A program made the translations under genes and the position numbers. From assembly GCF_002952215.1 (NCBI RefSeq), contig NZ_CP022600.1, forward strand, positions 2,108,001-2,172,000: 64,000 nucleotides of DNA, given 5' to 3'. Below, piece after piece: positions 25,316 to 59,308 of the stretch (within the stretch, counting starts at the first letter, position 1; every line of letters starts with the position of its first letter). Origin of the DNA: Porphyrobacter sp. HT-58-2. Its GTDB lineage: Bacteria > Pseudomonadota > Alphaproteobacteria > Sphingomonadales > Sphingomonadaceae. The notes beneath the pieces are model-generated. The model was not told the DNA's origin and did no database searches. It worked only from the letters and a program-made list of their open reading frames with translations.

Positions 25316-27679
25316 ATGGATGTAACGCCGCTTTCGCTGTTGCTGATTGCGCTGGTGCTCGCCGCCTGGGCGGTGGGCGCGGGTGTGGTCGTGCTGCGTG
25401 CGAATAGGAGTGTGAAGCGCACCAAGGCGATGCGCACGAGCCTGAAGCGGATGCAGACCCTGCTGGATGTCGCCCCTGCACTTCCCATGCTTGTGCGTAT
25501 CGATGGCCGGATCGAAGCTCCCGAAAAGCTTGCTCGGTTGCTGGGGCTCACCAGCATCCCCCAATATCTATCGGAACTGGTTGTGCCTTCCGGGCAGCCT
25601 AAGGCAGGGGGGCTCGCACCGCAGCAAATCGAGGAGTTATGGGCCAAAATCCAGACCACCCAGAAAAGCGCGGCACCCTTTCGAATGGCGCTCAACCTGC
25701 CGGGCTCGCGGCGTAGTCTGGCGCTGTACGGCACGCTCGCCGATCCGCAGGTTTCTCCCGGCGGCGCCGCCTTGGTGTGGGTGTTCGACTTTTCCGAGAG
25801 CCATGCCGAGATGGCGCGGTTGAGGGCCGCTGCTGCGCGTGCAACAGGGGATTTTGCGGCACTGGTGGGCCTGATCGAGGCGGCCCCGATGCCGATGTGG
25901 TTCCGCGGCAGTGACCTGACCTTGCAACTGGTCAACCAAGCCTATGTTGATGCAGTCGGCGCCACTAGTGCTGCCGAGGTGGTGCAGTCTCAGATCGAGC
26001 TGCTCGAGCCTGAGAATGAGCGCTCACCCGCTGAAATCGCGGCATCCAGTCTGCAAACTCAGGATAAGTCGGAGCGGATCGTCGCGGCCACCATTCACGG
26101 TGCGCGTCGAACCTTGCGGGTTTCGGATCTGCCGCTCGGGCAGGAAGGCGTGGCGGGCTATGCCATCGACATTGAGGAACAGCAGCAGGTCGCGCGCGAA
26201 TTCCGGGCTTTCCGCGATGCCCAGCGCGCGCTGCTCGATCAGCTTTCGGTCGGTGTGGCGCTGTTCGATGCCGAGGAACGCCTGACATTTGCCAATCGCC
26301 CGTTCCGGCGCCTGTTCAGCGTCAACGATGAGGTGGTTGAAGCGCGTACATCGTTCGAACGCTTCCTCGCCGAAGCCCGTGAACGCGGTCTTACGCCTGA
26401 AGTGCGCGATTTTCCCGAATGGCGGCGCGAGCGCACTGGCTGGTTCGGGATGCGTGATGCAGTGGAGGAGGCGTGGCCGCTGCCCGGCGGTACGCACCTG
26501 CGGGTTGTTGCGCAGCCGATGCCTGATGGCGGCCTTGTGCTGATTACAGAGGACCGCACGGAAAGCCTCGCTCTTTCTGCAGTGCGCGACACCCTGCTGC
26601 GCACCCGTACGGCAACGCTGGATAGCCTGTTCGAGGCGCTGGCAATCTTTGCGCCCGATGGTTCGGTGCAACTGTGGAACCGGAGTTTTGCGGGAACTTG
26701 GGGCCTTTCCACCGAATTGCTTGATCAGCACCCCAGCGCCGATGAACTTCTGACCGCGATCGGGCGCAACCTTGTGCGTCCCGAAGAAGCCGGTCTGATC
26801 GGCGGGGCGGTGCGCGCTGCGACGCTCGACCGGCGGGAAAAAGGCGGGCAGGTGGAACTTGCCGATGGCCGCACCCTGCGCTTTGCGGGAATACCGCTTC
26901 CCGACGGAAACGGCCTGCTCACCGTGCTCGACATCACTGCCTCGCAGAAGGCTGAACAGGCCCTGCGCGAGCGTGCCGAGGCGCTCGACGAAGCGAATGC
27001 CGTCAAGGCCCGTTTCCTTGCCAATATGAGTTATGAATTCCGTACGCCGCTGACGACTATCGGCGGCTATGCGGAACTGCTGAAAAGCGGCGTGGCGAGC
27101 GACCCGGAACAGTCGGGCGAATATGTCGATGCGATCCTTGCTGCGGTCGAACGTCTTACCGAACAGGTCGAAAACGTGCTCGATCTGTCGCAGAGCGAGG
27201 CGGGGCTGCTGCCGATTCGCAAGGAGCGGCTCGATCTGCTCGATTTCCTCACAAAACTGGTGCGCGAACGCGAGGAGGCGATCATCGCGGCAGGCCTGAG
27301 CCTTGATCTCAAAGGGCGGCGCGGGCGCATCATCGAGGCGGATCCGCGCCAGATGGGAAGGGCGATGGGCAACCTGATCGACAATGCCATTGGTGGAACC
27401 CCGGAGGGCGGGCGCATTGTTATCGAGATTCGCCGGCTTGCCGATGGCGGCCCGGGCGCGGGCATGGAAGTGACGATCGCCGATAATGGCAAGGGGATGA
27501 GTTCGGCTGAACTTGCCCGTGCGATGGGTGGAGTTCGGGCCGAGAAAGACGCTGCGCCCGAGCGACGCACCGGACTTGGCATTCCGCTCGCCCGTCAACT
27601 GATCGAGGCGCATGACGGCACGCTGGAGATCATCAGCCGCAAAGGTGCCGGCACCACTGCAACGATCCGTCTGCCGTGA
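25316..27679 (+). CDS. divL: DivL-like PAS sensor pseudokinase, Tyr in place of the phospho-accepting His
   Basis: The 787-residue protein has one N-terminal membrane helix (residues about 5-28), several PAS-like domains (roughly 180-540) and a histidine-kinase core. In the dimerisation helix it reads FLANMSYEFRTPLTTIGGYA: Tyr573 (codon 27032-27034) replaces the usual His. The ATPase domain is present (NLIDNAIGG, DNGKGMS, GLGIPLARQLIEAHDG). This substitution is the hallmark of DivL, the alphaproteobacterial regulator that binds DivK and controls the kinase CckA and so CtrA. Length is close to Caulobacter DivL as I recall it. tsaE follows directly, overlapping by one base, which supports orthology. 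Confidence 0.85.
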   Translation: MDVTPLSLLLIALVLAAWAVGAGVVVLRANRSVKRTKAMRTSLKRMQTLLDVAPALPMLVRIDGRIEAPEKLARLLGLTSIPQYLSELVVPSGQPKAGGLAPQQIEELWAKIQTTQKSAAPFRMALNLPGSRRSLALYGTLADPQVSPGGAALVWVFDFSESHAEMARLRAAAARATGDFAALVGLIEAAPMPMWFRGSDLTLQLVNQAYVDAVGATSAAEVVQSQIELLEPENERSPAEIAASSLQTQDKSERIVAATIHGARRTLRVSDLPLGQEGVAGYAIDIEEQQQVAREFRAFRDAQRALLDQLSVGVALFDAEERLTFANRPFRRLFSVNDEVVEARTSFERFLAEARERGLTPEVRDFPEWRRERTGWFGMRDAVEEAWPLPGGTHLRVVAQPMPDGGLVLITEDRTESLALSAVRDTLLRTRTATLDSLFEALAIFAPDGSVQLWNRSFAGTWGLSTELLDQHPSADELLTAIGRNLVRPEEAGLIGGAVRAATLDRREKGGQVELADGRTLRFAGIPLPDGNGLLTVLDITASQKAEQALRERAEALDEANAVKARFLANMSYEFRTPLTTIGGYAELLKSGVASDPEQSGEYVDAILAAVERLTEQVENVLDLSQSEAGLLPIRKERLDLLDFLTKLVREREEAIIAAGLSLDLKGRRGRIIEADPRQMGRAMGNLIDNAIGGTPEGGRIVIEIRRLADGGPGAGMEVTIADNGKGMSSAELARAMGGVRAEKDAAPERRTGLGIPLARQLIEAHDGTLEIISRKGAGTTATIRLP

Positions 27680-56608: not shown

Positions 56609-58978
56609 ATGATCCGATCGCTTAACTCACTGGCCGGGAAAATCCGGCGCGCGCTCGGCCCGTCCGGCAAGAAAACTGCTGTTCTCAAAGGAGAATTGCA
56701 GGGCCAACCCGGGGGCGCATTGCTTCGCAAGAAGCGCGTGAGGATCGCAGTGCTGGCGATTGTATTTGGGCTGGTTTCTGGCTCCATTGATTTGCCGCTT
56801 CCCGTTGAGGATCTTTACCGCGCGGCGCGTGCGCAGCTTCGTTCGCGGCCGGCCCCGCAGGATATAGCCTTCATTGCGATTGACGACCGGACACTTGCCA
56901 GTTTCGGAGGTAAGGTTCCGGGCCGTGAGTATGACAGCCGCGTTGTCGAAACACTGTTCGAACGGGGGGTGACGCGCGTGACCTTCGACCGCGCGCACGC
57001 TGATCCTGAAAGTCCGGCCGCCGATGCGATTTTCGCCGACACGCTCGCCCGCCACAAGGGTAAGGTTTGGCTTGGCTTTTCGCCAACGGTGCAGATCGGG
57101 ATGCAGCAGATCGAGGAAATCGTGCCGCTTCCAGCCTTTCGCCAACATGCTGGTATGGCGGCAATGAACGGCTATGGTGCGCCGTTCGGCCTGTCGGTCA
57201 GCTTCGGCACACAGGTTGATCTGGGTGACGAAGCGCACCCGTCGCTCTCTGCCGTTCTTGCCGAGTACAGTGGGGAGCGCATCAAGTATCGGCCTGATTA
57301 TGCCTTTGACCCCAGCACCATACCCGCTTTCAGTTACATCGATATCCTGAACGGAAAGGTGCGCGAAAGCGAGCTGCAGGGAAAGAAGGTCATCATCGGG
57401 GAAGCATTCCTCAGGTCGACCGATTTCTATCTTGTGCCCTTCAGTTCAGAGAGGCTGGTTCCCGGAGCCTATTTCCATATCATGGGTGCGCATACGCTGG
57501 AGCGTTCTGTTCCGCGCGATTTCGGTTGGGTTCCAGCCATGCTGCTGGCCGCCTTTGCGATAATCTGGCAGGTTATGGAGCGATCGCGCAAAGTTTCGTC
57601 GATGGGCCTCGTGATATCGGGATTGCTGGCCTTTCCGATCCTGCTCGACGAATTCGGAATCAACATCGACGTCATGTCCGCGGTGGTCGCGCTGACAGGG
57701 GCCTGGATCGCATTCTACCTGCTTAATCGCAAGTATTTCAGCAGCGAAGCCAACGCCATGACAACCTCGGCGATCAGCTCCGACAAGCCGAGCTTTGAAC
57801 GGGATGTCTTTGCGCTCAAGATCGCCAATCTCGCCGAATTGTCGGAGGATTGGTCGGCGCGCGAGACTGGGGACTTCGTCAACACGCTGATCGGCTATGT
57901 TCAGGGACCGGGCGAGGTCGGTGATGTCGCCTTCGAACGCGACATGCTGGTTTGGCTTTCGCCGCGGATGGAGATTGATGATCTGGAGCGCCATGCCGAT
58001 GGTCTGGCACTGATGCTGAGGACAGCGATCAACCATGACTGGCAATCCACCAATGGTGCTCCTGCACTTGGGATCGATACCAATCACGATTTGCCGGTCG
58101 GCTTGCGGATCAAGAAGGCGATGCAGGCGGCGGACGAGGCCGCCAGCCGAGGTGTACGCTTCATTGTCAATGATGCAGCCCATCTGGAGGCCCGCAATCA
58201 CCGCCTCGGCCTCATCCGCGTGCTCGAAAAGGGACTGCGTGATCGCTATATCGGCGTTGCCTATCAGCCCAAGGTCGATCTTGCTTCGGGACGGATCGTC
58301 GGCGCGGAAACGTTGATCCGCTGGCAGCCCGATGGCCGTGAATTCGTCAATCCGCAGGACCTCGTGCTTGCTGCCGAGGCCGCTGATCTGATCAACGATC
58401 TGACTCTGGTGGTGATGGAAACCGCGCTGGTCGACGGCAAACAGGCCATTACCCTTGATCCGCGCTTCAAGCTGGCGGTCAACATGTCGGCCAAGAGCCT
58501 GTCAGACACGCACCTGCTCTTCGACATCATGACGATGCTGGGTCGGCACGATTTCCCGCCTGAAAACCTTACGCTCGAACTGACAGAGACCGCGAAGCTC
58601 GACGATCAGCGAATCGCTCCGCAGGTGGCAGCGCTCAAGCAGCGCGGCATCGGCCTGTCGATCGACGATTTCGGAACGGGGCAATCGAACCTCGAATACA
58701 TCGAGACCTTGCCGAGCTCCGAGCTCAAGATCGACAAGCGATTCGTTCAGCACATGGCGAGTTCCGAAGAAAGCCGCGCAGTGGTGCGCGCCACGATCGA
58801 GATCGCCCATTCGCTCGGCAAGGTGGTGGTCGCTGAAGGGGTGGAGGATCTGGAGACGGCCGCCGCCCTGCGCGAACTCGGCTGCGATCAGGCGCAGGGC
58901 TATCTGTTCTCGGCCGCCATATCGATGCCCGAACTGATCAAGGCGATGGGAGGCAAGCGAGCCATAATTAACTCTTGA
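56609..58978 (+). CDS. CHASE2 - degenerate GGDEF - EAL cyclic-di-GMP phosphodiesterase
   Basis: The 789-residue protein starts with a basic cytoplasmic stretch and a membrane helix, then a periplasmic CHASE2 sensor (about residues 75-300), three membrane helices (about 300-380), a GGDEF-like region without the GGDEF motif (about 395-540), and a C-terminal EAL domain. The EAL residues are kept although the tripeptide reads ETL (VGAETLIRWQP): NMSAKSL, LELTETAK, SIDDFGTGQSNLEYI, LKIDKRF, VAEGVED, DQAQGYLF. It should hydrolyse c-di-GMP in response to an outside signal. Its stop codon overlaps a CtrA-like site. Confidence 0.92.
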   Translation: MIRSLNSLAGKIRRALGPSGKKTAVLKGELQGQPGGALLRKKRVRIAVLAIVFGLVSGSIDLPLPVEDLYRAARAQLRSRPAPQDIAFIAIDDRTLASFGGKVPGREYDSRVVETLFERGVTRVTFDRAHADPESPAADAIFADTLARHKGKVWLGFSPTVQIGMQQIEEIVPLPAFRQHAGMAAMNGYGAPFGLSVSFGTQVDLGDEAHPSLSAVLAEYSGERIKYRPDYAFDPSTIPAFSYIDILNGKVRESELQGKKVIIGEAFLRSTDFYLVPFSSERLVPGAYFHIMGAHTLERSVPRDFGWVPAMLLAAFAIIWQVMERSRKVSSMGLVISGLLAFPILLDEFGINIDVMSAVVALTGAWIAFYLLNRKYFSSEANAMTTSAISSDKPSFERDVFALKIANLAELSEDWSARETGDFVNTLIGYVQGPGEVGDVAFERDMLVWLSPRMEIDDLERHADGLALMLRTAINHDWQSTNGAPALGIDTNHDLPVGLRIKKAMQAADEAASRGVRFIVNDAAHLEARNHRLGLIRVLEKGLRDRYIGVAYQPKVDLASGRIVGAETLIRWQPDGREFVNPQDLVLAAEAADLINDLTLVVMETALVDGKQAITLDPRFKLAVNMSAKSLSDTHLLFDIMTMLGRHDFPPENLTLELTETAKLDDQRIAPQVAALKQRGIGLSIDDFGTGQSNLEYIETLPSSELKIDKRFVQHMASSEESRAVVRATIEIAHSLGKVVVAEGVEDLETAAALRELGCDQAQGYLFSAAISMPELIKAMGGKRAIINS

Positions 58979-58999
58979 TTAGGGTTAATAATGTGTTAA
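58968..58999 (+). promoter_or_regulatory. Tandem CtrA boxes before the 13-residue peptide gene
   Basis: 58985-58999 is a perfect TTAA-N7-TTAA CtrA site (spacer TAATGTG). 58968-58982 is a near-perfect one (TTAA-N7-TTAG) that overlaps the end of the preceding EAL gene. The downstream ATG at 59038 is 39 bases away, which fits a CtrA site near a -35 position. Confidence 0.7.
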
Positions 59000-59037
59000 A
59001 CCTTTCAGTGCGTTTTCGCATTGCAAGGAGCATTGTC

Positions 59038-59079
59038 ATGATCTGGGAAGGTTGGGACTGGATCTTCGGCGGTCGCTAA
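59038..59079 (+). CDS. Trp-rich 13-residue peptide, MIWEGWDWIFGGR
   Basis: A short ORF starts at ATG 59038 with an ideal Shine-Dalgarno AAGGAG at 59025-59030 (7-base gap) and stops at TAA 59077. Three of its 13 residues are Trp and it has Gly-Gly near the end. CtrA boxes lie upstream and an intrinsic terminator 22 bases downstream, so the unit is about 130 bases in total. No family is recognised. It might be a functional small peptide, a leader peptide, or the coding part of a small RNA. The 330 bases between the EAL gene and tRNA-Pro contain nothing else apart from this unit; 59129-59308 is empty. Confidence 0.6.
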   Translation: MIWEGWDWIFGGR

Positions 59080-59101
59080 GCTGAGATCGAGATTCACAAA
59101 G

Positions 59102-59128
59102 AAAGCCCCGGGAAACCGGGGCTTTTTT
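59102..59128 (+). terminator. Terminator after the 13-residue peptide gene
   Basis: AAGCCCCGG-GAAA-CCGGGGCTT followed by TTTT is a compact GNRA-loop hairpin with an 9-bp stem and T-run. Confidence 0.92.
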
Positions 59129-59308
59129 CTTGTCTGCAGGATGGATGCCGGGGCCGGGGATTCCCACATTTTGCCCCGCGCGTTGGCGGCGTATGGTTAA
59201 CGGTCTTGCCGCCAGTCAAAGCTGCACGAACCCATCACGAAGGACGTCGCGTTAACCCGTTCAAGCGATTTCTTGGCAAAATGGCGCGACCGCAGCCTTA
59301 CGCAAAAT

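Follow-up and report, generated by a model that had tools for sequence, protein, structure and literature searches.

What is a 13-residue open reading frame (ORF) doing between the end of a signalling gene and a terminator, and is it a gene at all? The ORF in question lies in a stretch of 64,000 nucleotides (nt) from Porphyrobacter sp. HT-58-2 (contig NZ_CP022600.1, positions 2,108,001 to 2,172,000), which we call the window and number from its first letter. Read from the sequence and from relatives, it occupies positions 59038..59079 of the + strand, TAA stop codon included, and encodes the peptide MIWEGWDWIFGGR. The stop codon that lies 59 nt 5' of it (58976-58978) ends a gene on the same strand (56609..58978) that encodes a 789-amino-acid (aa) protein with CHASE2 and EAL domains. 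A preliminary description of the window had seen here a CtrA-controlled mini-gene, and the CtrA sites, Shine-Dalgarno (SD) sequence, ORF and terminator were all found at the positions it gave. We conclude that this micro-ORF is very probably a real, overlooked gene, and that its family is wider than the preliminary description supposed. The most informative fact about it had gone unnoticed there, namely its link to the CHASE2-EAL gene.

Relatives of the micro-ORF were gathered by a DNA search (61 genomes) and by a search with the promoter pattern in 114 genomes of the genus. The latter matched 50 of the 114, a few of them by chance, and the 29 named stretches with the pattern are mostly labelled Erythrobacter or Porphyrobacter. 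A covariance model built from the second CtrA-like site (box 2), the leader hairpin and the ORF found 50 places in 48 of the 114 genomes at an expectation value (E) of up to 1e-4; three further genomes matched at E 0.2-0.9 only and were counted as noise. We read 46 members, plus one from a record labelled Hyphomonas. Exactly 12 codons and an ATG are found in 37 of the 46, while eight have other lengths and one has a GTG start. Peptides such as MWGYFSHLFGSR, MWAWFYELMGTR, MWGWITHMFGSR, MDFWYYWFGTGRR and MWDIWGWASKLFGSSK are variable but keep the same shape. Among the 37 12-codon relatives, W2 and G10 never vary, 34 have R12, 34 have F, I or V at position 5 and 27 have F at position 9; most keep hydrophobic residues at positions 5, 8 and 9, and Ser 11 is encoded by both TCN and AGY codons. 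The ORF and its CtrA-like sites are conserved in relatives, which bears out, at the level of sequence, the earlier proposal of a peptide gene. The Hyphomonas-labelled record, a contig of a metagenome-assembled genome (Hyphomonas sp. MAG, L086:2265-2364), has an Erythrobacter-type copy, MLWAWIYDISGSR, for which mis-binning seems likelier than transfer.

Within the genus, the element occurs together with the neighbouring gene. An orthologue of the window's CHASE2-EAL gene (E up to 1e-100) is present in 49 of the 114 genomes, and 48 of these have the micro-ORF element; in the remaining one, G114, the contig ends within the gene. The other 65 genomes gave no covariance-model match better than E 0.2, and 14 of these genomes without a window-type element have another micro-ORF/EAL pair. 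The model matches in other genera, the second copies in G025 and G013 and the copies in G036 and G070 (11 loci) lie 67-70 nt 3' of the stop codon of an EAL gene, and the genes further downstream differ between lineages. Each of the second copies in G025 and G013 stands behind its own EAL gene. One weak model match (L145) covers the promoter-like part only. Five genomes gave 49 EAL matches, of which 37 3' ends were read, and five of these have a micro-ORF besides the window's own; three of the five are matches of the window's CHASE2-EAL protein, and the other two were judged alike by their layout.

The pairing extends well beyond the genus. A search with the CHASE2-EAL protein only, in 298 genomes of the family (E up to 1e-80), found 69 CHASE2-EAL places in 66 genomes and 27 genera, three of them in the window's genus. 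An SD-led, Trp-containing micro-ORF of 11-41 aa follows 59 of these 69 genes: all 30 of the best matches and 29 of the remaining 39. By a tally made by hand, the pairing is present in 25 of the 27 genera, with g110 and g115 lacking a positive. Longer peptides are common in this set and carry the same core after a basic N-terminus, as in MKNQKSRPVRGFWDWLFGGSGGAAGGKG, MAKRTKQPVRGFWDWLLGGGWSN and MTKASQTKFDIWEWLYGKPVLA. Pfam found CHASE2 in the window, L219 and L349 proteins, and EAL only in L350, whose start is missing; for other genes the name CHASE2 rests on tblastn alignments that span the CHASE2 part.

A second Erythrobacter lineage, searched with a query from G126 (30 loci read), has micro-ORFs of 9-16 aa at 14 of its 14 best matches, the peptides including MWNFWRWMFG, MRRSIWDWIFS and MLGSWLDWF. 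Fifteen of the next 16 loci were readable; 14 had no match, and the Trp-containing ORF at L376 was judged spurious. These 16 loci are taken to be mostly a third paralogue, which the window's genome also has (contig 67634-69676). Of the places found in an order-wide search, 70 were examined (30 loci plus 40 fetched, some picked as likely paralogues); 47 have the ORF by script and 49 when L293 and L286 are added by eye, and several of the negatives are the third paralogue. At class level, a search of 289 genomes (E up to 1e-70) gave matches in four genomes only, all of the window's family. The 202 EAL 3' ends brought together in this way are a collected set, not a random one. Some assignments were made by eye: L032 (GTG start), L154, L226, L293, L331, L340 and L343 were added to the list of peptides and L161 was removed as spurious, L248 and L257 were read by eye and later recovered by the scan, L214 and L286 were judged positive though their ORFs run past the end of the stretch read, and L218 and L226 have weak cores. 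At L267 (G257:C1), the CHASE2-EAL gene is followed, to the eye, by an SD-like stretch and an ATGTGG that opens into a longer transposase-like frame, and it looks as though an insertion replaced the micro-ORF.

We define the family as SD-led ORFs of 9-41 codons that follow the stop codon of a CHASE2-EAL gene within about 310 nt. The window's ORF falls within this definition, and its peptide contains the core GWDWIFGG, with W-x-W, hydrophobic residues and Gly. Members of the set compiled here measure 9-41 aa, with a median of 14.5 aa. Their commonest core is G-[FI]-W-[DES]-W-[LIV]-[FLM]-G, and W-x-W, present in 110 of 150 unique members, is a majority feature and not a universal one. Three longer members (23, 38 and 41 aa) had no Pfam or NCBIfam match at E up to 1, and the window's 13-aa peptide is shorter than the 20-residue minimum of that profile scan. 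A protein-database search with the 41-aa member (L241) gave one match, a "hypothetical protein" of Sphingomonas sp. LaA6.9 that is probably the query's own record. We found no report of the pairing of such a peptide with CHASE2-EAL in the open-access papers searched, a scope outside which most subscription papers fall.

If the peptide core is searched for in its own right, it leads back to the same kind of gene. We searched 239 genomes of the family for F-W-D-W-x-x-G-G as exact degenerate DNA (23 nt), with no use made of the EAL gene; 17 matches in 17 genomes were found, 14 of them at loci already known, and a reversed-pattern control gave none among the matches listed. The pattern is strict and recovered no Erythrobacter member. 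All 17 matches lie in SD-led ORFs of 13-41 aa, 16 of which immediately follow a gene whose product has EAL at its C-terminus. The 17th, in G292 (L385, C4:85739), is the micro-ORF MAKRTKKPVRGFWDWVLGGGWN on contig 4, with a 7/8 CtrA-like site, an SD and a terminator-like hairpin, while the CHASE2-EAL gene of that genome is on contig 3 and has no core-like ORF in the following 330 nt. No other micro-ORF was seen to have moved away from its enzyme gene. This natural separation of the two means that the micro-ORF can be a unit of its own and that any action on the enzyme there would be in trans.

Shuffled and reversed sequences give a measure of what chance would provide. In a strict scan, 137 of 142 positive tails have the micro-ORF, as against a mean of 12.6 (maximum 22) in shuffles, 2 of 142 reverse complements and 1 of 56 negative EAL tails; because the positive tails had been chosen with a similar scan, the fair comparison is with the shuffles and the reverse strand. 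In a FastTree phylogeny of 116 EAL proteins, 96 with and 20 without a micro-ORF, presence and absence require 2 label changes compared with 18.7 for shuffled labels, on a tree that has long branches and some labels assigned by hand. L164, L180 and L182, which are without a micro-ORF, are placed among the positives with weak support. Against this conservation at the protein level, the idea that the micro-ORF is a chance frame between a gene and a terminator, to which its shortness below gene-calling limits lends some colour, can be practically dismissed given the kept residues, the co-occurrence, the shuffle controls and the core search. We hold it close to certain, as far as comparison of sequences can carry it, that the micro-ORF is a real protein gene, which would then be transcribed and translated.

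What might such a peptide act on? Pfam recognises CHASE2 in the window's neighbouring protein at residues 66-311 (4.8e-14) and EAL at 539-769 (1.6e-58), and the protein has EAL-domain relatives in PDB. A Kyte-Doolittle scan places hydrophobic segments at 42-67 and 304-373, which flank CHASE2, and the EAL domain has the usual motifs ETL, DDFG, KID, EGVE and QGY. The hydrophobic segments around CHASE2 and the usual EAL motifs make it probable that the neighbour is an active phosphodiesterase of the membrane, with its sensor on the periplasmic side. We regard the peptide as most likely a partner of this enzyme because its gene adjoins the enzyme gene, is absent or doubled together with it, and has once been kept after separation. 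A functional link between the two is probable, and direct binding of the peptide to the enzyme, a physical partnership, would be about an even bet.

We then consider how the micro-ORF might be controlled. CtrA-like site 2 (TTAATAATGTGTTAA, 58985..58999), located by pattern search, matches TTAA-N7-TTAA at 8/8 positions, and site 1 (TTAACTCTTGATTAG, 58968..58982) at 7/8; the window locus therefore has the pattern that marks the CtrA regulon. Site 1 overlaps both a putative -35 and the stop codon of the EAL gene, so that the preliminary statement that nothing else is encoded here is not entirely accurate. The putative -35, TTGATT (58975..58980), and the putative -10, TAAACC (58997..59002), with a 16-nt spacer, were read by eye from the window and its relatives; in the relatives, too, box 1 or its counterpart appears to share its right half with a -35 of the form TTGNNN, and a -10 follows 16-17 nt later, just 5' of the leader. 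Overlap with the -35 is the usual position for activation by CtrA. With up to one mismatch, the window has four matches to the pattern where 1.4 are expected, a number that 6 of 100 shuffles reach, and two of the four are at the micro-ORF promoter. Such a pattern is modest alone, and its significance comes from its conservation.

That conservation is considerable. Of 142 upstream regions, each 110 nt long, 119 match the pattern at 7/8 or better, where the null gives 11.8 on average and 18 at most, and 53 match it at 8/8 (null mean 0.73), although these regions are mutually related and kin sequences are counted more than once. Without the 47 Erythrobacter-type loci, at least 7/8 is found in 72 of 95 regions, versus 7.6 (maximum 15). 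At 39 of the 47 Erythrobacter-type loci the right end of the site (box 2) is 38-41 nt before the ATG; at the other loci the commonest distance is 66 nt (15 of 72). According to excerpts of PMC7200025, TTAA-N7-TTAAC is the consensus from chromatin immunoprecipitation sequencing in Hyphomonas; the CtrA-regulated genes treated there have the same full-site pattern as the one predicted here, from sequence, over a putative -35. CtrA is described as dispensable in Sphingomonas melonis in excerpts of PMC8116508 and PMC7200025, and the title of a cited reference states that the S. melonis phosphorelay controls motility and biofilm formation. These patterns suggest that CtrA may bind upstream of the micro-ORF and control it, so that the control claimed in the preliminary description is upheld as far as a conserved and enriched site pattern goes. 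DivL, which the same description had placed in the window, was not confirmed. Seven window ORFs were scanned against NCBIfam, with no DivL among the matches listed. The sole kinase among the seven, a histidine kinase of 787 aa (25316-27679), matched 44 families; the 25 listed are all under curated cut-offs and none is DivL. This kinase is possibly the protein that had been called DivL.

Taking these lines together, we lean somewhat towards the view that the micro-ORF is an independent gene of a micropeptide family, likely a dedicated regulatory partner of the adjoining CHASE2-EAL protein and controlled by CtrA. Several points weigh against this. Adjacency could reflect inherited synteny and not function. 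In the stretches read, 10 of the 69 CHASE2-EAL genes have no micro-ORF, and many further EAL genes are without one, including the CHASE2-EAL-like paralogue in the window's own genome. The model behind the genus co-occurrence detects window-type elements only. Although the third codon position is freest in codons 3, 4, 6, 10 and 12 of the 12-codon relatives, these are only five of codons 3-12, and the first position is freest in the other five, as expected if hydrophobic residues swap for one another. Similarly, the ratio of nonsynonymous to synonymous differences (pN/pS) is 0.58 in frame, versus 1.09 and 1.30 in the other two frames, but it is near saturation (column permutation mean 0.93, minimum 0.55 in 60), and the case therefore rests on residues, frame and length. 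Outside Erythrobacter, pairing of the SD in the leader is not above the null (58 of 95 with at least 4/6 bases paired; mean 3.5 versus 3.7). Finally, no signal sequence was seen in the peptides (no signal-sequence predictor was run), and a role as a periplasmic ligand would therefore require an export route of an unfamiliar kind. The paralogue without a micro-ORF (G000:C1:67634-69676, L366 and L323; also L316, L326, L370, L373, L375 and L377) precedes, in several genomes, a small lipoprotein-like gene with a LAGC-like motif and, where the sequence suffices, a CNAD stretch, which we take to be reminiscent of the I78 inhibitor family.

The need for export bears most directly on the possibility that the peptide is secreted and then sensed, as an autocrine signal, by CHASE2 in the periplasm. 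This would be the form of our favoured explanation that needs export, and we consider it unlikely, though the least so of the alternatives, as no route is known. In its favour are the placement of CHASE2 between hydrophobic segments and a likeness to the leaderless communication peptides of Firmicutes (SIP/LCP, with RopB-type receptors), which are also encoded by ultrasmall ORFs adjoining a receptor gene. In excerpts of PMC10518010, these peptides are mostly 8 to 10 aa, are made of aromatic and aliphatic residues, for example MWLILLFL, and were found by scanning small ORFs near the receptor. The adjacency and the aromatic/aliphatic composition of the micropeptides fit this anatomy if the neighbour is assumed to be the receptor. 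The comparison, the closest analogy that we have, is one of anatomy, with no sequence relation claimed. The receptor in the same excerpts is a cytosolic RRNPPA transcription factor, whereas the neighbour in the Alphaproteobacteria described here is a CHASE2-EAL protein of the membrane; lacking a RopB-clan (RRNPPA) receptor, the peptides were not assigned to that group. Also unlike those peptides, the ones described here reach 41 aa, have FWDWLFG as their commonest core and are preceded by CtrA-like sites.

A slightly less likely alternative is that the peptide is membrane-active with a role of its own, in the envelope or as a type I toxin, and owes its position behind CHASE2-EAL to inherited synteny. 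The peptides are aromatic, and of 138 unique members 132 have either no net charge or a positive one. Hairpins that sequester the SD, such as the one predicted in the window's leader, are known for type I toxin mRNAs. What this alternative accounts for poorly is the co-occurrence with the EAL gene within the genus, the second copies paired with second EAL genes, and the pairing in 25 of 27 genera. What we propose instead resembles the way in which MgrB, SafA, CydX and others work, each a tiny protein that acts on a single membrane protein. Regulators of that type are about 30 aa or longer and have a transmembrane helix, whereas the peptides described here, at a median of 14.5 aa, are too short for one.

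Could the RNA, and not the peptide, be the product? In that case a CtrA-driven small RNA would act on other mRNAs through its 5' anti-SD arm or stem, with the ORF incidental or minor. The unit is compact, with a leader hairpin and a terminator, and the fold of 59000-59130 is more stable than shuffles of the window sequence (z -4.78). The predicted 5' hairpin (59001..59028) has a 5' arm complementary to an SD, and its 3' arm takes in the AAGG with which the SD itself begins (AAGGAG, 59025..59030, 7 nt 5' of the ATG at 59038). The SD had been called ideal in the preliminary description, and AAGGAG is indeed present, but its AAGG is paired in the predicted hairpin. When 46 leaders including the window's were folded, 4 or more of the 6 SD bases were paired in 42 of them and 2-3 in the other four, with a mean z of -3.1 versus mononucleotide shuffles. 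In the Erythrobacter set and in the others alike, the last 46 nt are more stable than versions whose 5' part has been shuffled (-13.9 vs -7.8 and -15.4 vs -10.3 kcal/mol). Within Erythrobacter, 43 of 47 leaders reach 4 or more paired SD bases out of 6, and the mean is 4.6 compared with 3.6 in the control. Given the null result in other genera, a family-wide sequestration of the SD was not supported, and sequestration as predicted by folding is a feature of the genus here.

The residues of the peptide, moreover, are kept while the sequence of the hairpin changes. RNAalifold predicted no pairs, and hence no consensus structure, on a MAFFT alignment in which the hairpin arms are out of register, which is why each leader was folded singly. 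An Rfam search of the window at gathering scores gave three transfer RNAs (tRNAs) only. The intrinsic terminator (59099..59128), GCCCCGG-GAAA-CCGGGGC with a GAAA loop and a T run, is recognised by a regular expression in 42 of 46 members. Its sequence recurs elsewhere in the genome, with an 88% match at G000:C1:1418881-1418919 (also L026), and the conservation of that sequence therefore says little about the micro-ORF gene. We consider an RNA product improbable. The dual-function small RNA that the preliminary description had offered fares little better, since SD pairing exceeds its control in the Erythrobacter set only, whereas the protein core is kept family-wide.

An attenuator leader for a downstream gene can be set aside almost entirely: Trp codons followed by a terminator do recall trp leaders, but the next gene in the window is a tRNA on the opposite strand, followed by thyA, a long ORF downstream, presumed to be the real gene, is on the other strand at L141, L142, L144, L146 and L148, and 21 of 138 unique members have one Trp only. 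With no regulated gene on the same strand, the window locus was not classed as a trp-type attenuator leader. The likeness to rnTrpL/peTrpL, a dual-function attenuator small RNA with a Trp-containing leader peptide, lies in a short Trp-containing peptide and a terminator in Alphaproteobacteria; unlike it, the micro-ORF is not upstream of trp genes, has promoter-like sites of its own and encodes a conserved peptide core.

We return, then, to the peptide as a partner of the CHASE2-EAL enzyme. In the mechanism we propose, CtrA would set transcription of the micro-ORF and, in Erythrobacter, the leader hairpin would limit its translation. The peptide would be a ligand or a membrane-interface subunit of the membrane phosphodiesterase, or perhaps a cytosolic modulator of it; its binding would change the turnover of cyclic di-GMP (c-di-GMP) and so couple the CtrA programme to c-di-GMP outputs. 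Motility and biofilm formation are typical outputs of this kind. The simplest logic, should CtrA promote motility, would be that the peptide activates the phosphodiesterase, though this direction of effect is something we infer. More tentatively, the peptide might be the cognate ligand of CHASE2 or an obligate subunit of the enzyme, and CtrA might switch c-di-GMP turnover through 9-41 residues, widely among sphingomonads.

These results describe a new family in which a tiny protein is paired with a signalling protein, the specific partnership being an unproven hypothesis. They indicate that conserved protein genes, many of 9-16 codons, escape standard gene finding, and they point to one kind of CHASE2-EAL enzyme as a candidate partner. 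If the peptide does act on this enzyme, c-di-GMP signalling would have a peptide input, CHASE2 a candidate ligand, and CtrA a link to c-di-GMP.

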